64,000 nucleotides of DNA. Origin: Saccharopolyspora phatthalungensis. Its GTDB lineage: Bacteria; Actinomycetota; Actinomycetes; Mycobacteriales; Pseudonocardiaceae. Of this stretch, positions 54,567 through 64,000 are shown in pieces. A model generated the notes under the pieces. The model saw only the letters and a program-made list of their open reading frames with translations. It ran no database searches and was not told where the DNA came from. The translations under genes were made by a program, and so were the position numbers. The stretch spans positions 3,765,501 to 3,829,500 of the forward strand of contig NZ_JACHIW010000001.1 in NCBI RefSeq assembly GCF_014203395.1, in the 5' to 3' direction. How positions within the stretch are numbered: the stretch's first letter is position 1; each line of letters opens with the position of its first letter.

Positions 54567-55103
54567 CTACGTAGGACTGTTGAGAGCACTGAGTACGGAG
54601 ATGATCTCGGACCAGATAAAGGTTGCTAGTCCGTCGTCGGCTCTGGTTGTGACGGCATCGGGCTTCATCATGGATACCCCGATTGCCGTCAGTCGTGTGA
54701 TGCTTTCCTGGTACGCGGGATGCTTGCGTAGCACGGACTTCACACAGGGGACGGCGATGATCGGGACATCGGTGCCGATCATTTCGTTGAGCACGCTGAG
54801 CGCCAGCGTGTCGCTGATTCCCGCGGCCCATTTGTTGATGGAGTTGAACGTCATCGGCGCAGCCACTACCGCGTCGGCTTGGGGCAGCGAATCCTGCTCA
54901 CGAGGTGGACGAGGGTGTACTCGGATCAGGCAGCCTGTTCTGGCTGCGAGCCCGTTCAGGTCGATCCAGGTCGTCGCCGTGGGCGTGGCGATCATGACCA
55001 CTGTCCAGCCCCCGGCGTGCAATGCGGTGATGAACTCCTCAATGCGCAAGACCGGAGGTGCGGCCGACACCACGAGGTACAGACACTGCGACGATGGACT
55101 CAT
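54567..55103 (-). CDS. HFCD-family flavoprotein
   Basis: The protein has 178 residues. AAPMTFNSINKWAAGISDTL, ALSVLNEMIG and AVPCVKSVLRKHPAYQESIT are typical of the homo-oligomeric Cys decarboxylase family (PPC decarboxylase, EpiD, LanD). It is coupled to the upstream regulator by a 4-bp overlap. LanD proteins decarboxylate C-terminal Cys, but the precursor here ends in Ser, so that job is unlikely. Such flavoprotein-regulator pairs are common in actinomycetes outside lanthipeptide loci. Confidence 0.8.
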   Translation of the reverse strand: MSPSSQCLYLVVSAAPPVLRIEEFITALHAGGWTVVMIATPTATTWIDLNGLAARTGCLIRVHPRPPREQDSLPQADAVVAAPMTFNSINKWAAGISDTLALSVLNEMIGTDVPIIAVPCVKSVLRKHPAYQESITRLTAIGVSMMKPDAVTTRADDGLATFIWSEIISVLSALNSPT

Positions 55104-56362
55104 GCGGCTACCCCCGTCCGCTGGGCGAGGCCGCGCAAGCCCGGCACTGTACAGCGGCGCTCACGAGCCAACAGTTCCTCGATGAGCGTGTGGGCTTTCG
55201 GGTTCGTACGCACTAATTCGGGGGCGACCCGCTCGGTATCCAGAAGGTGGATCACCGCCTCAGGGTCCTCACCAAGCCTTGCGTGCGCCCACGCGCTGTC
55301 GAGATGAAACTGGGCTTGGCGCCCGTGCAGGCCGATCGGCAGCCGGACGATGTCGATCTGTTGCGCCGTCGTCAGCGCGGCGTAGGGATCGCCCAGGGCA
55401 ACCGCCACGGACAGTCGGTGGATCAGCGCGTTCGTCGGTCCAAATGCGGTCCAGCCGATGTTGCCGTCCGCGCCGAGGAGCCCTGCCAACTCCTCGGCGT
55501 GATCGAGCCGCCGAGTTGCCTCAGCGGAATCGCTGCGGCGAGCGGCGATGATCGCGCTGATCAATGTCAAGGCGCCCCGCCAGGTCATGCTCTGCGGATC
55601 GGTACCCCGTACGGCGTCGGCTGCTGACACGGCCGTCTGTTCGGCGTCGTCGAGGCGGCCGGCGCGCAGCAGAGCGCACGTCCGCTGGTAGGCGGCACCG
55701 GCTTGGCCGAACGTGTCCTCGGCGGCCTCTGCTGCTTCTCGGGCTTGCACTGCGGCTGTCCAGGCGCCGGCGGCGTCGCCAACCTTGGTTGCGAGTTTCG
55801 CTGCGGCGATGTGCAGGCTGCACTGCAGGACGAACGCTTCTCGCCTTGTCTTCGCGGTCGGCTCGAACACCAGCGCGTCGACAGTTGCCGTCACGGACGG
55901 GAGCAGTCGCGCAGCCTCGGCATACCGTGCAGCCTGATATGCCTGGTGTACCTCGGCCACCATCGTCGACGTATTCCTGACAGTGGGCGCGCCCCGTGGT
56001 GCCGCATGGCTATCGAGCAACGGGGAGTCGGGACGCCTGCCCGGCAACTGGTCAGCGACGGCCGCGCTGGTGAGAAGAACCGTATCGGCGATGGCCTCGC
56101 GCCGGCTGGCGAGCTGCTGGCCCGTCCCGGCAGTAGCAACGTCGTCAATCAGCGGCGATGGCTTTAGCAGCTTGTGCAACTCGTCTAGCGATACGTGGAG
56201 CACCCGTGCGAGGTCCGGGCGCCGCCAGGGCTGCGGAGTCCCTGTTCCGCGTTCCCAGCGGCCTACCGTCGATAGTTCGACACCCAACTCATGGGCCAGG
56301 GTCTCCTGGGTAAATCCCAGTGCCTCGCGACGAGCAGCGAGGGCATCCCGTCGTGTCGTCAT
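55100..56362 (-). CDS. XRE-family regulator with TPR-like domain
   Basis: The protein has 420 residues. The helix-turn-helix is at the N-terminus (LAARREALGFTQETLAHELG, VELSTVGRWERGTGTPQP). The remaining 340 residues are TPR-like helical repeats (AALTLISAIIAARRSDSAEA, ALTTAQQIDIVRLPIGLHGR). Such proteins often control neighbouring secondary-metabolite genes. It diverges from the methyltransferase gene across 686 bp and is a good candidate cluster regulator. Confidence 0.88.
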   Translation of the reverse strand: MTTRRDALAARREALGFTQETLAHELGVELSTVGRWERGTGTPQPWRRPDLARVLHVSLDELHKLLKPSPLIDDVATAGTGQQLASRREAIADTVLLTSAAVADQLPGRRPDSPLLDSHAAPRGAPTVRNTSTMVAEVHQAYQAARYAEAARLLPSVTATVDALVFEPTAKTRREAFVLQCSLHIAAAKLATKVGDAAGAWTAAVQAREAAEAAEDTFGQAGAAYQRTCALLRAGRLDDAEQTAVSAADAVRGTDPQSMTWRGALTLISAIIAARRSDSAEATRRLDHAEELAGLLGADGNIGWTAFGPTNALIHRLSVAVALGDPYAALTTAQQIDIVRLPIGLHGRQAQFHLDSAWAHARLGEDPEAVIHLLDTERVAPELVRTNPKAHTLIEELLARERRCTVPGLRGLAQRTGVAA

Positions 56363-57048
56363 GGTCCCTTCCCCTGATCACAGGAGCACCTACCATACCG
56401 ACCCAGTACCTGGCCTGGGTCAGCCGTTGCTGGAGTCGGCAGCCTGACCGGTCCATCTTCTCCCAATCAGGGGGTAGGCCGGTCTTTTCCGCGCAGGTCG
56501 GCGGATCACCCCGGCCTAGTGGGTGCGCGCAACGCAGGAGCGGTCGAGCGTACGTCCTTGTCTATAGGATGGACCGATCGGGGGAAACGGTGCGGAAACC
56601 GCATGGCCGTTGTGGCACGTCATAGCCCTCGACGCCGCATAAACGCCTCATCGTCGCCTTTTTCGCGCACTGGACGCCGTCGTTGGCGGAGAGTTGACTG
56701 GCGGAGCCAACGCTAGGAGGAGCCACCTCTTGGTGTGGTTTGGTGATCGCGATCCGCTTTGTGTACGCCGCTGGGACATGGATGTCGGCACTGTCAACGA
56801 GTTCGGGGAGACTGACGTACTACCGCGAGGCACTGATTGGTGTGCTGCGGGAGCTGGCGGTGTGCAGGTGCAGCGTGTACCTGCGGCGTGCACATCGAAA
56901 GGCATTGCTGGCCGTGAAAGGTGTGAGCGCGGCGTACCTGTCGGCAGGGGTATCCGCGATGCGCCGATACGGTACGACGGCTCGTCGAGCGCCTCAGACG
57001 AGAAGCACTCACCTCCCCATTGCCCGGTAGGACGACAAGGAAAACCTC
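56363..57048. promoter_or_regulatory. Divergent promoter region of the lanthipeptide cluster
   Basis: This 686-bp region has no credible gene. A possible -10 (TATAGGAT) follows TTGTC near 56557-56572. GACCGGTCCATC near 56447 and GGATGGACCGATC near 56568 are partly inverted copies of each other and may bind the regulator. Confidence 0.35.
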
Positions 57049-58359
57049 GTGACCGACACGAATACAGCTTCAAAAACGAACGGCGAGACCGCGAACTCCG
57101 ATCGCGCCGCGCACATGCGCAGGCAGGTGGTAGACGAGCTGATCGCCGAAGGCACAATCGTGTCCGCGCCCGTCGAGACGGCGATGCGCAAGGTCCCTCG
57201 GGAGGTTTTCGCCCCGGGGGTGACCTTGGAAGACGTCTACCACGTCTACAACGGCGTGGTTACGAAGCGGGACGAGGCTGGCAACTCGATCAGCTCGATT
57301 TCCGCGCCGCAGCTTCAGGCGCACATGCTCGAACAAGCCGAGATCAGCCTCGGCATGAACGTGTTGGAGGTTGGTTCTGGAGGCTACAACGCCGCGCTGC
57401 TGGCCGAGCTTGTCGGTCCGTCTGGTCACGTGACCACAGTGGACATTGACGGCGACATCACAGATCGGGCGCGGCAACTGCTTGCCAAGGCGGACTATCC
57501 GCAGGTGAACGTCCTGCTCGCGGACGCCGAAGCCGGAGTGCCCGATCACGCTCCCTACGACCGAATTCTCGTGACTGCTGGCACTTGGGACGTCCCGGGG
57601 GCGTGGGTGGATCAGTTGGTCGAGGGCGGGTTGCTGTTGGTGCCGTTGTCGGTGCGTGGTCTGTCCCGCACAATCGCGTTCGAGAAGATCGCCAAAGGCC
57701 GGTTGATCAGTCGGTCGTCGAAGTCGTTCGGGTTCGTGCCGATTCGGGGCGCGGGCGAGCATGAGAGCACGCTGCTGGTAATGCGCGGCGGCGAAGTCAC
57801 TGTACGCATCGACGATGAGTTCCCCGCCGGCTTCTCCGTCGACTGGCGCTGCGTGGAGTCCGCCCTCGACACGCCGCGGGTGGAGGTGTGGAGTGGGGCC
57901 ACCATCGGACGATTCGAGCCGTGGGCGACCGCGCAGATGTGGCTTGCAACAGCCCTACCAGGCTTTTGCCGTGTTGTCGTGGATCGAGAGCGCAGCACGG
58001 GTCTGATCTCCCCACCTGGCCGACACACGGCCGCCGTTGCCGCTGTCTCCGCTGGCAGCTTGGCCTACGTCACCACCCGCGACACTGACGACAAGGATCG
58101 TGTGGAGTTCGGTGTGCACGCCTTCGGCCCGAACGCCGCTGAACTGGCCGAGGCAGTGGCCGAGCAGCTTCGCATCTGGGAACGGGACCACCGCGGGGGA
58201 CCTGGTCCGCAGTTCCGGGTCTATCCGGCTGGCACTTCGGATGAGCAGATGCCCGAGGGCCGTGTCGTCGACAAGAAGAACGCGCGGATCACGATCTCCT
58301 GGCCGCACGCCGCGACCGCCGCGTGCGGCCAGGTTGTCCAGCACAACCCCACCAAGTAA
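57049..58359 (+). CDS. PIMT-like methyltransferase of the FxLD lanthipeptide system
   Basis: The protein has 436 residues. The first half is related to protein-L-isoaspartate O-methyltransferase: QLQAHMLEQAEISLGMNVLE and the SAM motif LEVGSGGYNAALLAELVG near residue 102, then YDRILVTAGTWDVPGAWVDQ. The C-terminal 200 residues are specific to this group. Lanthipeptide-linked PIMT homologues such as OlvSA methylate an Asp side chain, giving an aspartimide that yields isoaspartate. The GTG start follows AAGGA. It lies 15 bp before the precursor gene. Confidence 0.88.
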   Translation: MTDTNTASKTNGETANSDRAAHMRRQVVDELIAEGTIVSAPVETAMRKVPREVFAPGVTLEDVYHVYNGVVTKRDEAGNSISSISAPQLQAHMLEQAEISLGMNVLEVGSGGYNAALLAELVGPSGHVTTVDIDGDITDRARQLLAKADYPQVNVLLADAEAGVPDHAPYDRILVTAGTWDVPGAWVDQLVEGGLLLVPLSVRGLSRTIAFEKIAKGRLISRSSKSFGFVPIRGAGEHESTLLVMRGGEVTVRIDDEFPAGFSVDWRCVESALDTPRVEVWSGATIGRFEPWATAQMWLATALPGFCRVVVDRERSTGLISPPGRHTAAVAAVSAGSLAYVTTRDTDDKDRVEFGVHAFGPNAAELAEAVAEQLRIWERDHRGGPGPQFRVYPAGTSDEQMPEGRVVDKKNARITISWPHAATAACGQVVQHNPTK

Positions 58360-58374
58360 GGAGAGGTATCCCAT

Positions 58375-58572
58375 ATGTCAGATTTCCGGCTCTCGGGTGG
58401 CACGGCACTGGCCGACCCGCCCGACCGAGGGGACGACGAGTTCGCGCTCGATGTGCGGCTCTTCGTGGCCTATGGCCCTGTCATGGGGGACTGCCCGACC
58501 GACGACGGCTGCGGCAACACCTGCGAAGGCGAAGCCAGCGCGTGTAACTCGTTCGCAGACGACCCGTCGTGA
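58375..58572 (+). CDS. FxLD-type lanthipeptide precursor
   Basis: The peptide has 65 residues. The leader holds the FALD motif (23-26) inside DEFALDVRLFVAYG. The C-terminal part (about 36-65) has Cys at 40, 46, 50 and 57, Thr at 42 and 49 and Ser at 55, 59 and 65, so several lanthionine or methyllanthionine rings are possible. Asp43 and Asp44 next to Gly45, and Asn48 before Thr, are candidate sites for the methyltransferase. AAGGAGAGG precedes the ATG. A 13-bp hairpin follows the stop. The cleavage site is not evident and no protease gene is in view. Confidence 0.85.
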   Translation: MSDFRLSGGTALADPPDRGDDEFALDVRLFVAYGPVMGDCPTDDGCGNTCEGEASACNSFADDPS

Positions 58573-58584
58573 CGCATTTTCCGT

Positions 58585-58614
58585 CTGCCGGTGCGCCGTG
58601 GGGCGCACCGGCAG
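58585..58614 (+). terminator. Hairpin between precursor and dehydratase genes (probable attenuator)
   Basis: CTGCCGGTGCGCC and GGCGCACCGGCAG pair perfectly (13 bp) around a 4-base loop, followed by TTT. It begins 13 bases after the precursor stop codon. Partial termination here would give more precursor than enzyme, as seen in other lanthipeptide operons. Confidence 0.7.
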
Positions 58615-58646
58615 TTTCCGGCGCCCGAGGCGTCGTGGGAGGCAAC

Positions 58647-61600
58647 TTGGCATCCACATCATCGCCGGTGTACCGATGGGTTGGCGCGGCGTTGCTTCGT
58701 GCCAGCACCGATCCGGGTGGATTGGATCTACCCGAGGATCTGGACGTGTTCGGCGGCGACAAGACGCGGCAGGCGGTGGGTTGGCTGTCGGCGCTGTGGC
58801 AGCGTGCGGAGGTTCGTGCTGCGCTGGAAACAGCGAGCCCCGACTTGTCCCGGCAGGTTGACGACCTGGTGGTCTCCGGTAGCGGCGACGCCCGAACCGT
58901 TCGCCGAACAGTGATCTCGGTGCTCTCGTACGTGTTGCGTTGGCGAGGGCGTTGTACCCCGTTCGGTCTGTTCGCCGGGGTCGGCGTGGCCCGGATAGGG
59001 ACCGAGACAAAGGTGCGATGGGGCGGCAAGCACCGAGTTGCGGTCCGGGCCGATGCGGGCTGGCTGGACGATGTCGTGGCCCGCCTCTACCAGTGCGGCG
59101 AGCTTCGGGAGCGGCTGTCCGTCGTCGCCAATGGGGCCGCGAGTCCCCGTGGCACCCGCGTCGTGGCACCAGGGCGGGCACCCGATGGCGCCGCTGAGGA
59201 ATTGGCCCCGATCGAGGTGTCAGTACGGCACAGTCGTCCGGTTCGCACAGCGCTGGGCGCGGCCCGAGAACCTGTGAGGTTCGGTGAACTGCGCGCACTG
59301 CTCCTCAACCAGTTTCCCGGTGCGACCGCGCAAAAGATCGACGGATTGCTCGTAGGTCTTCTCAACCAGGGCTTGTTGATCAGCAACTTGTCCGCGCCGA
59401 TGACCTGCCTAGATGCGCTGGGCCATACCTGCGCGCAGCTACAGGCAGCCCAGGCGCACGCGATCCCCGAAATCAAGGGCGTGGTGCGCGAGCTGGATGC
59501 CATTCACGGCCAGCTTTCGACGGTAAGTTCGGATACGCCGGTAGGGGCGGTAGCCGAGCGGATGAGGGCGTTAAGCAAGGCCACCGACGTCGCGCAGGTT
59601 GTCGATACGAGCGCGGACTGCGATGTTCGGATCCCGGAGTCGGTCGGTCAGGAAGCACGTGACGTCGTTGGTGTCCTGTTCCGGCTTTCCCCTTACCCGT
59701 GGGGCTACCCGGTGTGGAGGGACTACCACGACCGGTTCCGGGCACGCTACGGCGTCGGTGCGCTGGTACCGGTCTTGGAGCTTGTCGCTGACAGTGGGCT
59801 CGGGTTTCCGGCGGGCTATCTCAGCTCGGCACACGGGCGTGCGGCCCGCAAGCTGAGCGAACGTGACGAACGGTTACTCGCGTTGATCCAGAAGGCCACG
59901 GTGGACGGCGGCGGGGAAATCGTACTGACGGATCATGTGATCGAAGATCTGACTGCCGGTGAAAACACCGAGTTGGCCCACGTGCCCCCACGTGTTGAAG
60001 TCGCTGTGGAGATCCGCTCCGAATCGGTGGAAGCGTTGGCGCGCGGACGTTTCGCCTTGACGGTCACCGGTACACCGCGGCCCGGCAGCAGCATGACGGG
60101 CCGACACGTGCACCTGCTACCCGAGGAAGACCGGAACCTCATCGCCGAAACCTTCACCGCGACAGAGCCGGGCGTGGTCGCTGCCCAGTTGTCCTTCGCC
60201 CCACGTAAACGGCGCAACGAGAACGTTGCCCGCACTGAGCAACTTCTCCCCGATGTCATCTCGATCGCTGAGCATCGCGAACCGAGCGGACACGTGATCC
60301 CCGTAGCGGATCTCGCGGTCACCGCGGACGAACGCCGCTTCTACCTAGTCCAACCTTCTACAGGGCGGCGTGTCGAGCCGCGCGTCACGCACGCCTTGGA
60401 AGCCGGGCGCCACACCCCTCCGTTGGCACGGTTTCTCGCCGAGATCACAACGGCCCGCTCCACGGTCTACAAGGCGTTCCACTTCGGTGCCGCCGAGAGG
60501 CTTCCGTACCTTCCCCGAGTAAGCTACCGGCGAACCATCTTGTCTCCGGCACGGTGGCTGCTGTCGGCCCCGGACTTTTCCGACCGCAGCGCCTCGATGG
60601 CCGAATGGGAGGCCGCGCTCGACTCCTGGCGGACCAAGTGGCACATTCCCGAGCACGTGGCGCTGGTCGACCACGACCGGCGGCAACCCGTGGATCTCGG
60701 CCACCGGCTGCACAGGCGCTTGCTGCGGACCCGTCTGGACCGCGCTGGCGGCGTCGAACTCCGCGAAACAGCCGATCCTCGCGAGCTTGCGTGGCTGGGC
60801 CGCCCCCATGAACTCGTGATTCCCTTGGTGCAGGACAGGTCCGCCACCGCGGCCCGCTTGCCGAGCACGGATCCAGAACGTGTTGTCGCGGGCGACGCCC
60901 TGCATCTGCCCGGCAACTCGACGATCCTCTGCGCACAGCTCTACGGGAATCCGAGCCGGTTCGATGAGATTCTGACCGAGCACCTGCCTGCCTTGATCAC
61001 GGCTTTCGGTGCGGAGACGCCGCGTTGGTGGTTCCGCCGCCATCGCCAGCTGCGCCACCCCGAGGTCGACCAGTACCTTGCCCTCTATCTGCATCTCGCT
61101 GAACCGTCCGTGTACGGCTCGGCAGCTGAACGGCTCTCCGAGTGGGCGAAGAAGCTGCGCGGAGACAAGTTGGTGTCGCACCTCGCGCTAGTCAGCCACG
61201 AACCCCAATTCGGGCGCTACGGCCACGGCCTCGCGATGGATCGCGCGCAGGACGTTTTTGCCGCCGACTCATCGGCAGCCATCGCCCAGATCAACACGGC
61301 GGTCCGGACGGGCGGGTCTTCCCAAACCCTGGCCGCCGCCAGCCTGGTGGACTTAGCGGTGCGGTTCACGGGCTCCGCGGACGCGGGCCTGAGCTGGCTG
61401 GTCCGCGAACTTCCGCAAGAACGCGGATGGCTGGACCCAGCTCTGCGTCACCGAGCGCTGGAGCTGGCCGATCCTGGCGGCGAGTGGACGACGGTGCGCT
61501 CGCTGCCCGACGGAACGGATGTCGTGGCCGCGTGGGAGACACGCGGTGCCGCGCTGGCTGCCTATCGAGAAGAGCTGGCCGAGCAGCGTGACCCACTGAC

Positions 61601-61730
61601 CGTTCTGCCCTCACTCCTGCACGGGCACCACAACCGGGCCGTCAGCGTCGACACCGCCATCGAGCGCATCACGGGACGGCTCGCGCGTATCTGCGCGCTG
61701 CGCCATACCGCCCCGCGCAAGGGGAAATAA
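58647..61730 (+). CDS. Lantibiotic dehydratase LanB, full length
   Basis: The protein has 1027 residues from the TTG at 58647, which follows GTGGGAGG. A GTG at 58569 would add 26 residues, but these are encoded by the hairpin. The N-terminal part glutamylates Ser/Thr using glutamyl-tRNA (SYVLRWRGRCTPFGLFAGVG, HFGAAERLPYLPRVSYRRTI). The C-terminal elimination domain has WWFRRHRQLRHPEVDQYLAL and SHEPQFGRYGHGLAMDRAQD, VFAADSSA, and ends PSLLHGHHNRAVSVDTAIER. It makes dehydroamino acids in the precursor. Confidence 0.92.
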   Translation: MASTSSPVYRWVGAALLRASTDPGGLDLPEDLDVFGGDKTRQAVGWLSALWQRAEVRAALETASPDLSRQVDDLVVSGSGDARTVRRTVISVLSYVLRWRGRCTPFGLFAGVGVARIGTETKVRWGGKHRVAVRADAGWLDDVVARLYQCGELRERLSVVANGAASPRGTRVVAPGRAPDGAAEELAPIEVSVRHSRPVRTALGAAREPVRFGELRALLLNQFPGATAQKIDGLLVGLLNQGLLISNLSAPMTCLDALGHTCAQLQAAQAHAIPEIKGVVRELDAIHGQLSTVSSDTPVGAVAERMRALSKATDVAQVVDTSADCDVRIPESVGQEARDVVGVLFRLSPYPWGYPVWRDYHDRFRARYGVGALVPVLELVADSGLGFPAGYLSSAHGRAARKLSERDERLLALIQKATVDGGGEIVLTDHVIEDLTAGENTELAHVPPRVEVAVEIRSESVEALARGRFALTVTGTPRPGSSMTGRHVHLLPEEDRNLIAETFTATEPGVVAAQLSFAPRKRRNENVARTEQLLPDVISIAEHREPSGHVIPVADLAVTADERRFYLVQPSTGRRVEPRVTHALEAGRHTPPLARFLAEITTARSTVYKAFHFGAAERLPYLPRVSYRRTILSPARWLLSAPDFSDRSASMAEWEAALDSWRTKWHIPEHVALVDHDRRQPVDLGHRLHRRLLRTRLDRAGGVELRETADPRELAWLGRPHELVIPLVQDRSATAARLPSTDPERVVAGDALHLPGNSTILCAQLYGNPSRFDEILTEHLPALITAFGAETPRWWFRRHRQLRHPEVDQYLALYLHLAEPSVYGSAAERLSEWAKKLRGDKLVSHLALVSHEPQFGRYGHGLAMDRAQDVFAADSSAAIAQINTAVRTGGSSQTLAAASLVDLAVRFTGSADAGLSWLVRELPQERGWLDPALRHRALELADPGGEWTTVRSLPDGTDVVAAWETRGAALAAYREELAEQRDPLTVLPSLLHGHHNRAVSVDTAIERITGRLARICALRHTAPRKGK

Positions 61731-62972
61731 TTGGCCACCTCAAGGCCTGCGACAGGCAACCTTGCCGAAGTGGCCGAGCGCTACGCCACCGAGCTGGCCA
61801 CGCTCGAACCGCCACCCGAGGACAAGCCGTGGGTCCGGCAATCGCTGACCAAAGGCGCCGCCGGAATCGCCCTGCTGCACGTCGAGCGTGCCCACGCCGG
61901 ATACGGAACCTGGCAGCAGGCACACCGCTGGATCAAGACCGCCGTCGCCCATCCCATCAGCGCCTTGGACACTGCCGGGCTCTACCAGGGTGCACCGGCG
62001 ATCACGCTCATGTTGGACGCGGCGGCAACCGGCGCCGCAGGGCGCTACCGCAACGCCCTCGCTGATGTCGATGGGCATGTTGCAGCGCTCGCGCATCGCC
62101 GAGTCGACGCTGCGATGGCTCGCATGAAAGCCGGCGAGCTTCCGGGATTTCGCGAGTACGACGTGTTCTTCGGCTTGGCTGGGATCGGCGCGCTGCTGCT
62201 GCGCCGATCGCCGGGTAGCAGCGCGATGGGGCGCATCCTGGACTATCTCGTCGCCCTGACGAAGCCGCTCCAGATCGAGGACCAGGGTGTGCCGGGCTGG
62301 TGGGTCGGCCACGATCCGCACCGCCGGAATTCCGCTGCGTATCGAAGCGGACATGGCAATTTCGGGATGGCCCATGGAATCTGCGGTCCGCTGGCCTTGC
62401 TCAGCCAGGCGATGCGGCGCGGCGCGACTGTCGGCGGGCACCTGGACGCGATCATTACCATCTGCGATTGGCTTGATGCTTGGCGTCAGGACGCGGACGC
62501 CGGACCGTGGTGGCCGGAATGGATCACTCTCGACGAGCTGACCCGCGGCACTCCCAGCCAGCCGGGTCCGGCGCGCCCGAGTTGGTGTTACGGCACGCCC
62601 GGCATCGCGCGTGCAGTCCAGTTGGCCGCTATCGCCATCAGCGACGCACAGCGCCAACGGAGCTACGAAGAAGCATTGATCCGATGCCTGGATGACCCTG
62701 ACCAGGAGAACCGGATCACAGACGGCGGCCTGTGCCACGGCTGGGCCGGCGTGTATCAGACCGCCTGGCGTGCCGCCCAGGACGCAGTCAGCCCAGAACT
62801 CGCCAGTCACCTGCCGCGCCTGGCCGCGTGCCTGACCTGCCAAGTCCACCTCACTACTGCGGCCAGGCCGGGGCTTTTGGAGGGCAAAGCCGGAACAGTC
62901 CTCGCCCTGCACACCGCCGTGCACGACGTCGCGCCGATCTCCGGATGGGATACATGCCTACTGATCGACTAG
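61731..62972 (+). CDS. Lanthionine synthetase C-like cyclase (LanC)
   Basis: The protein has 413 residues and starts at TTG directly after the lanB stop. Zinc ligands and catalytic residues are in SWCYGTPGIARAVQL and GLCHGWAGVYQT; MAHGICGPLALLSQAM is another toroid motif. It should add Cys thiols to the dehydrated residues to close rings. The ribosome site GGGGAAATAA overlaps the end of lanB, so the two are coupled. Confidence 0.92.
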   Translation: MATSRPATGNLAEVAERYATELATLEPPPEDKPWVRQSLTKGAAGIALLHVERAHAGYGTWQQAHRWIKTAVAHPISALDTAGLYQGAPAITLMLDAAATGAAGRYRNALADVDGHVAALAHRRVDAAMARMKAGELPGFREYDVFFGLAGIGALLLRRSPGSSAMGRILDYLVALTKPLQIEDQGVPGWWVGHDPHRRNSAAYRSGHGNFGMAHGICGPLALLSQAMRRGATVGGHLDAIITICDWLDAWRQDADAGPWWPEWITLDELTRGTPSQPGPARPSWCYGTPGIARAVQLAAIAISDAQRQRSYEEALIRCLDDPDQENRITDGGLCHGWAGVYQTAWRAAQDAVSPELASHLPRLAACLTCQVHLTTAARPGLLEGKAGTVLALHTAVHDVAPISGWDTCLLID

Positions 62973-64000
62973 CACAGCCAACGTCAGCACACAGCAGCGC
63001 AGCGGACCCGCCTGCCGTCACGCAGAACACCGAAAACATGGAGCGCGCCGTGCTGGCGACGCTAACGGGCACACCCGCGGCCGAGGCCGCACGCGTTGAG
63101 CGCGTCGAGCCGACGGATCTCGCCGAAGCCGTCGAAATCTACCGACGGGCTGGACGGTACGCCCTCCAACAGCAGACGGCCTCGGACTGGTGGCAGCTAT
63201 ACATCCAGTTCACCGACTGGAAAAGTGCCGAACAGACCTTCACCAATCACATCGTGCCGGTCCTGCACCAGGCCGAAAACGACGCGCTTGTCACCGCATG
63301 GTGGTTCATGCGCAAACACCCCTGCTGGCGACTCCGGCTCCACCCCGGACCGGATGGTCAACAAATGAAACCACGCCTGGGCACGACACTCGATGAACTC
63401 GCCGCCAACAGCCGGATCGCGGCCTGGTGGCCCGGCATCTACGAGGCCGAAACCGCAGCGTTCGGTGGCGACATGGGCATGAGCCTCGCCCACGGCCTGT
63501 TCTCCGCAGACAGTCGCGCCATCGTGCATGTGCTCCGCGACGGCGACATCGCTCTCGGTCGCCGTGAGCTGTCGCTACTTTTGTGCAGCATCCTCATGCG
63601 CGCCCCCGGATTGGAATGGTACGAGCAAGGCGACGTCTGGGACCGGGTGTCCCAGGAACGACATTTTCCGGAAAACGTGCCGACCGCGAAGCTGACGGCG
63701 ATGACGAACGATCTCAAGCAGTTGATGCTCGCCGACACATCTCCCGACGGGCCGTTGCTGGGCAAAAATAGCCCGCTAAACGCTACCTCCGAGTGGGCCG
63801 ACGCCTTCCGCCGAACCGGCCAATCTCTCGGCGCCGCGGCCCGCGCGGGAACACTGCAACGCGGCCTCCGCGAAGTCCTGGCCTATTTGGTGATCTTCCA
63901 TTGGAACCGCATCGGGCTGCCCGCTAGAACACAAAGCATCCTCGCCTGCGCAGCGCGTACCGCCATCCTCGGCCAGCCCGCAGCATCGGCAAGCAGGCCC
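62954..64000 (+). CDS. Thiopeptide-type bacteriocin biosynthesis protein (SpaB_C-like), 3' end outside the window
   Basis: From the ATG at 62954 the frame stays open to the window end (349 codons). It overlaps lanC by 19 bases. The region ASDWWQLYIQFTDWKSAEQT, WWFMRKHPCWRLRLHPGPDG and GGDMGMSLAHGLFSADSRAI matches the SpaB C-terminal elimination domain. Because the LanB upstream already has such a domain, this is a second one. It may act on glutamylated residues LanB does not handle, or have a divergent role. Confidence 0.8.
   Translation, partial: MPTDRLAQPTSAHSSAADPPAVTQNTENMERAVLATLTGTPAAEAARVERVEPTDLAEAVEIYRRAGRYALQQQTASDWWQLYIQFTDWKSAEQTFTNHIVPVLHQAENDALVTAWWFMRKHPCWRLRLHPGPDGQQMKPRLGTTLDELAANSRIAAWWPGIYEAETAAFGGDMGMSLAHGLFSADSRAIVHVLRDGDIALGRRELSLLLCSILMRAPGLEWYEQGDVWDRVSQERHFPENVPTAKLTAMTNDLKQLMLADTSPDGPLLGKNSPLNATSEWADAFRRTGQSLGAAARAGTLQRGLREVLAYLVIFHWNRIGLPARTQSILACAARTAILGQPAASASRP

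Follow-up and report, generated by a model that had tools for sequence, protein, structure and literature searches.

Class I lanthipeptide precursors of actinobacteria in which a conserved core Asp occurs beside a PIMT-like methyltransferase gene have been published (Walker 2020, PMC7268733; Lee 2023, PMC10787088; Zhu and Link 2026, PMC13001092). The family includes the olv and coi clusters and the "lanthimiditides", and the class as such is therefore not new. Its core motif, TxDGC beside a LanSA gene, is defined in PMC13001092 and PMC10787088. OlvSA converts the Asp of its cyclised substrate to an aspartimide, which upon hydrolysis gives mostly isoAsp (PMC13001092). Dehydration in related systems involves a second type of elimination domain. 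CoiSA(ED) and SptBb share a constellation of Lys, RxR and Glu that lacks the equivalents of NisB R826 and H961, and both perform syn-elimination (PMC9486935, PMC9011353, PMC9890492). Three dehydrations were still obtained when CoiSA(ED) was combined with lyase-dead CoiB, which shows that a single syn-lyase can be enough for an entire core (PMC9486935).

Here, we describe an FxLD-type cluster in a stretch of 64,000 nucleotides from Saccharopolyspora phatthalungensis (NZ_JACHIW010000001.1, positions 3,765,501 to 3,829,500; hereafter the window, whose own positions are used below). It belongs to the known class, and what is new is a clade of full-length LanBs with an altered pocket that is tied to a separate syn-lyase.

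Gene content of the locus

An earlier note, made from the sequence alone, had read this region as an FxLD class I lanthipeptide locus in which LanB, LanC and a second SpaB_C protein accompany the precursor, and profile searches bear this out. The 65-residue LanA precursor (58375 to 58572, plus strand) scores 51.4 bits against TIGR04363 (cut-off 30), and the preceding LanSA, the PIMT-like O-methyltransferase of the FxLD system (57049 to 58359, plus strand; PF01135), reaches 520.4 bits against TIGR04364 (cut-off 320). They are followed on the same strand by LanB (58569 to 61730), with a glutamylation domain and a C-terminal SpaB_C domain (PF04738, 1-649; PF14028, 2-249). The LanC cyclase (61731 to 62972, plus strand) matches PF05147 and, aligned to NisC and MadC, has its active-site residues in place: D, H, R, C and CH motifs occupy the positions of the NisC active site. 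All five cluster reading frames are open.

The last of them encodes the second SpaB_C protein, a predicted syn-glutamyl lyase (62945 to 64000 within the window, plus strand). The gene continues across the end of the window for 69 bases, to 64069, giving 374 residues when counted from 62945. The listed reading frame opens with GTG at 62732; the in-frame ATG codons at 62945 and 62954, which overlap the end of lanC, fit better as starts.

Upstream on the minus strand lie two neighbour genes, a flavoprotein with a putative role in the pathway (54567 to 55103, PF02441) and an XRE/HTH regulator (55100 to 56362). Close copies of the flavoprotein with a similar regulator were found near three other FxLD loci (L084, L088 and L116), the regulator relatives scoring 533-566 bits, but such pairs are infrequent near FxLD loci. 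The flavoprotein was rejected as a LanD decarboxylase, since the C-terminal residue of the precursor is not Cys.

The earlier note had proposed to look beyond position 64000 for a protease and a transporter. Neither was detected by Pfam among the 10 downstream reading frames scanned, nor was either recognised among the 15 largest recurrent neighbour groups of 92 FxLD loci, most of which have no assigned function. The coi cluster likewise has no protease or transporter nearby (PMC9486935). Export and leader removal would not be encoded close to the cluster.

The precursor and its predicted modification by LanSA

The FALD leader motif and four Cys residues read earlier from the precursor are present, at residues 23-26 and at positions 40, 46, 50 and 57, respectively, in a protein with the core CPTDDGCGNTC...SACNS. 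No TIGR04363 match occurred in 14 control genomes and a database search returned 54 proteins including the query, the nearest other one being 83% identical, so the match is not due to chance. Among the closest relatives the core C-P-T-D-D-G-C-G-N-T-C...S-x-C-N-S-F-A-D-D-P-S is nearly invariant. FxLD precursors were found in 95 of 297 genomes sampled from the family of this organism and in 59 of 394 sampled from its class, this genome being counted in both. The earlier note did not recognise the core as a known product. Our searches also found no characterised product with this core, and PDB sequence searches, run up to E 10 with the precursor and also with a 24-residue core of a paralogue from the same genome, gave no match; the core is not an orphan, however, as many actinobacteria carry near-identical ones.

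The lanthimiditide motif is represented by T42-D-D44-G-C46 beside the LanSA gene. By analogy with OlvSA, conversion of Asp44 to aspartimide or isoaspartate by LanSA is a fair prediction. The same Asp-derived modification had been proposed in the earlier note; it agrees with the published OlvSA work (PMC13001092), as a prediction and not as a new one. Calculated monoisotopic masses of the full 65-residue peptide are 6718.818 Da without modification, 6646.776 Da for the fourfold dehydrated form and 6628.766 Da when an aspartimide is present in addition; every glutamate still attached would add 129.043 Da.

LanB retains its glutamylation residues and carries an altered elimination pocket

Alignment of LanB to NisB, MibB and MadB showed that the glutamylation residues Y121, R124, R128 and T130, corresponding to NisB Y80, R83, R87 and T89, are intact. 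The C-terminal PF14028 domain (residues 787-1037) presents another picture. The NisB strand H-I-R784-L-R786 reads Y-L-A838-L-Y840 (A838 to Y840 at 61080 to 61088, plus strand), NisB E823 is replaced by Q880 and NisB R826 is kept as R883 (61206 to 61217, plus strand), NisB H961 is kept as H1018 (61620 to 61622, plus strand), and His825 stands at the place of NisB Tyr776. The canonical anti-lyase set of R784, R786, E823, R826 and H961 is therefore represented by A, Y, Q, R and H. In an AF2 model (overall pLDDT 83.7) residues 835-842 form part of a strand within a C-terminal domain that is complete, and the top whole-chain Foldseek match of the model is MibB (E 9.8e-66).

The NisB exchanges R786A, R826A and H961A led to proteins that added glutamate but did not eliminate it (PMC4979651). 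The description of this protein as a full-length LanB in the earlier note holds as far as both domains are present, but it is incomplete, because the elimination domain lacks the equivalents of R784, R786 and E823. That note had also named a mutated active site in LanB or LanC as a finding that would weigh against its reading: the LanB elimination pocket is indeed altered, while the glutamylation residues of LanB and the ligands of LanC are intact.

The second SpaB_C protein has the signature of a syn-glutamyl lyase

For syn-lyases of the SptBb and CoiSA(ED) type we looked for the conserved Lys, the RxR motif and the Glu, together with the absence of Arg826 and of the catalytic His (PMC9486935, PMC9011353). 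The second SpaB_C protein has K124, R129, R131 and E169 and carries A172 and I317 where Arg826 and the catalytic His would be; K124 to R131 (63314 to 63337, plus strand) compare with K46, R51 and R53 of CoiSA(ED) (PMC9486935). It is therefore present as noted earlier, though not as a spare copy, and by analogy to CoiSA(ED) and SptBb we predict it to be a syn-glutamyl lyase. A PDB sequence search with this protein alone gave no match (E up to 0.1), and a profile built from 21 such proteins retrieved MibB, TsrE, MadB and NisB as well as a weak match to Tll0287.

The same constellation is found throughout the FxLD loci. Among 89 second SpaB_C domains the equivalents of R786 and E823 are invariant (89/89) and that of R784 nearly so (85/89), whereas position 826 is never Arg and position 961 never His in the 88 domains that cover it. 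Lys occupies the position of NisB 776 in 85 of 85 domains.

Altered LanBs form one clade among FxLD loci

From 114 FxLD loci gathered, removal of seven with short flanks, ten without a usable LanB and five duplicates left 92 distinct LanBs. Of these, 52 have an intact residue set, 29 lack both arginines and 11 lack the C-terminal domain. In a tree of the N-terminal domains, a quick one without bootstrap for which the program warned of long branches elsewhere, the 29 LanBs without the arginine pair form a single clade (SH-aLRT 100) and the 11 domain-less ones a single weakly supported group (SH-aLRT 61). Within the altered clade, 22 of 28 members retain R826 and 27 of 28 retain H961. In the 120 database LanBs nearest to the C-terminal domain of the window LanB, a set drawn by similarity that shows persistence and not frequency, R786 is lost in all and R784 in 118; R826 and H961 are kept in 114 each, position 776 is His in 111 and position 786 is Tyr in 90.

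Divergence of the C-terminal relative to the N-terminal domain amounts to 1.11 in the altered clade versus 1.03 in intact LanBs. Intact domains share 32 columns with a conservation of 95% or more; in the clade, conservation of six of these is under 50%. The pattern points to a change aimed at the carboxylate pocket, because three of these six columns are R784, R786 and E823. Such a targeted change fits a domain kept for structure, or one that has been re-specified. Retention of R826 and H961 together with the near-fixed His776 and Tyr786 suggests that something is under selection. The divergence ratio and the column conservation do not support a simple neutral decay of the C-terminal domain.

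A syn-lyase gene is present in all 29 loci with an altered LanB, in all 11 with a domain-less LanB and in 45 of 51 loci with an intact LanB, the fifty-second (L113) running off its sequence stretch. The syn-lyase is a separate protein in 29 of 29 altered-clade loci and fused to LanSA in 11 of 11 domain-less ones; an N-terminal helical extension is found in 29/29 altered-clade, 3/45 intact-LanB and 0/11 domain-less loci. The precursors also differ. In the window precursor, C40 precedes the conserved Thr by two residues. A Cys at this place is present in 26 of 27 precursors of the altered clade, in 8 of 10 from domain-less loci, in none of 45 from loci with an intact LanB plus syn-lyase and in 4 of 7 from loci with an intact LanB and no syn-lyase, the precursors having been chosen by text pattern and the few clades providing cases that are not independent. 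On these counts the additional Cys appears common to loci that should rely on a single kind of lyase and absent from two-lyase loci, with exceptions and across few clades.

We found no description of a clade of altered full-length LanBs with a separate syn-lyase in the literature covered, although the supplement of PMC9486935 (Figure S1, Table S6) may report it. The clade contradicts one published generalisation (PMC9486935), which appears to be broken by a large actinobacterial group of full-length LanBs.

Further FxLD genes in the genome

The genome encodes five FxLD precursors and five PF14028 domains, namely the LanB and syn-lyase of the window, the same pair in a second cluster of the altered clade about 117 kb upstream (L007), whose LanB lacks R826 too, and, near C1:5.48 Mb, one syn-lyase in fusion with LanSA. 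The canonical anti-lyase set is absent from each of the five domains found. With a listed completeness of 99.42% for the genome, an overlooked PF14028 copy is possible but unlikely.

Proposed pathway and alternatives

As LanB lacks part of its elimination site, a separate partner enzyme probably finishes dehydration, and its carrying out of the elimination step probably results in unusual ring stereochemistry. We consider it somewhat probable that the locus is an FxLD lanthimiditide cluster whose LanB and separate syn-lyase each carry out one half-reaction of dehydration, although LanB has both domains. The N-terminal domain of LanB, with its residues intact, would glutamylate core Ser and Thr residues. 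The separate SpaB_C protein would then remove glutamate by syn-elimination, as CoiSA(ED) and SptBb do, turning Thr42 and Thr49 into (E)-Dhb. The C-terminal domain of LanB, which keeps the fold, R826 and H961 and has lost the carboxylate-binding pair and E823, is predicted to eliminate little glutamate, if any. The CoiA1 rings are T43-C47, T50-C55 and T57-C51 (PMC9486935), and by analogy LanC may close T42-C46 around Asp44, T49-C57 and S59-C50; for C40, pairing with S55 is a guess. We predict D-allo-L-MeLan for the rings derived from Thr. LanSA would methylate Asp44 in TDDGC inside the first ring, giving the aspartimide and in part isoaspartate.

Several observations speak against the divided dehydration or its simplest form. 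The LanB domain is not rotting and mostly keeps R826 and H961. NisB R784A still reaches sevenfold dehydration (PMC4341554), and CoiSA retains activity upon the R51A and R53A exchanges (PMC9486935). CoiC is unable to fully cyclise the all-syn product, so the window LanC would need adaptation, and Ser59 stands at the position of CoiA1 Thr57, whose replacement by Ser is poorly tolerated by CoiSA(ED) (PMC9486935).

A stronger form, which we put forward tentatively, is that the LanB C-terminal domain has ceased to be a glutamate lyase. It could serve as a docking or structural platform for the syn-lyase, or its re-specified pocket (His776, Tyr786 and Gln823, with R826 and H961 kept) could act on another group. 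In both cases, with no canonical anti-lyase found in the strain, its FxLD products would form via (E)-dehydrobutyrine only.

Somewhat less likely, in our judgement, is an ordinary coi-like two-lyase cluster, in which the LanB domain still acts as an anti-lyase by means of His825, Tyr840 and Gln880 and the rings are of mixed stereochemistry. The residues of anti chemistry, R826 and H961, persist in most of the clade, the replacements at 776, 786 and 823 are near-fixed and, apart from the pocket, the domain shows good conservation, all of which would suit a working lyase. However, R786A alone stops elimination in NisB (PMC4979651), a subgroup of the clade including the second cluster of this genome is devoid of R826 as well, and the pocket residues differ across the clade.

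We regard a decaying or silent locus, with the pocket loss as first step of pseudogenisation and no product, as quite improbable. The genome does contain an FxLD locus that is a wreck (L076) and another whose LanSA is distributed over two frames (L075), and native products of the coi and olv clusters had yet to be reported (PMC9486935), but the five genes of the window are open, and the pocket loss is common to a clade that spans many genera and whose domains and precursors are conserved. A composite site, in which R826 and H961 of LanB and the R784, R786 and E823 equivalents of the second protein complete each other across an interface, is less probable still and was dropped: the two proteins do hold complementary halves of the NisB set, but the second one does not track the missing half, because its residues are the same beside intact (45), altered and domain-less (11) LanBs, and CoiSA(ED) eliminates with the CoiB lyase disabled (PMC9486935).

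If the divided dehydration is correct, stereochemistry would have to be deduced for each LanB from its pocket residues, its length being no guide. Lanthipeptides that combine exclusively D-allo-L-MeLan rings with an aspartimide or isoaspartate would become predictable as a class, and the altered clade would constitute a natural experiment on the acceptance by LanC of (E)-Dhb at positions that CoiC refuses.

Comparison with known systems

Families I 1-4 of Walker 2020 resemble the window in the conserved core Asp, the PF01135 methyltransferase and, often, an additional elimination-domain protein; for this extra domain a different reaction was suggested, and LanBs with a changed elimination site are unmentioned in the parts of that paper considered (PMC7268733). 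The spt cluster is similar in that only a syn-lyase is expected to act, and the three MeLan of SapT are D-allo-L (PMC9011353). Its LanB, however, is split into SptBa and SptBb, whereas the window LanB retains the C-terminal SpaB_C domain and a LanSA gene is present. In the class I olv cluster of Streptomyces olivaceus (OlvA/B/C/SA) the PIMT-like LanSA likewise leads to aspartimide and isoAsp in the N-terminal MeLan ring (PMC13001092), but the second lyase is absent and OlvB is placed among the anti-lyases (PMC9486935). The coi cluster of Streptomyces coelicolor (CoiA1/B/C/SA) shares the FxLD-type precursor with TxD[GN]C, LanB, LanC, the PIMT-like methyltransferase and a second lyase of the syn type (PMC9486935). 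It differs in that this lyase is fused to the methyltransferase, the lyase of the window being separate with an N-terminal helical extension, in that CoiB has a canonical anti-lyase site whereas the window LanB lacks the Arg pair and the Glu, and in that the window precursor has an additional N-terminal Cys. Against this background, the predicted division of labour between LanB and the syn-lyase is the new point in the window cluster.

Other FxLD loci and their gene neighbourhoods

The genome that holds the window carries a second FxLD cluster with a LanB of the same clade, i.e., full-length proteins without equivalents of NisB R784 and R786. This locus (L007, contig C1, 3700000-3718000) is located about 117 kb upstream of the window's cluster. 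Its LanB has also lost the R826 equivalent, and a separate predicted syn-glutamyl lyase is retained.

This genome has two further FxLD loci. At L075 (C1, 5470001-5490000), LanB is devoid of the C-terminal SpaB_C domain and the PIMT-like methyltransferase LanSA is divided between two frames. L076 (C2, 1466001-1486000) is a wreck in which LanB is reduced to a 189-aa piece and LanSA again lies in two frames. At L077 (8556-9932 of the locus, within C2, 1876501-1896500), an FxLD-like precursor with the core GGTDDGCDPTCASACISDG... is directly followed by a PIMT homologue, and no LanB, LanC or SpaB_C match was found within about 10 kb of this pair. It may be a remnant or a PIMT-only peptide.

The neighbours of 92 FxLD loci were compared. 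In 40 of these loci, but not in that of the window, the cluster is adjoined by a member of a protein family (L068, 3518-4777, and relatives) that is about 419 aa long and matches TPR repeats weakly. The XRE regulator and flavoprotein pair of the window (54567-56362) recurs near loci L084, L088 and L116, and may have a regulatory link to the cluster.

Loci L134, L135 and L136 encode an intact LanB and yet a syn-lyase with the N-terminal helical extension; they are possible intermediates.
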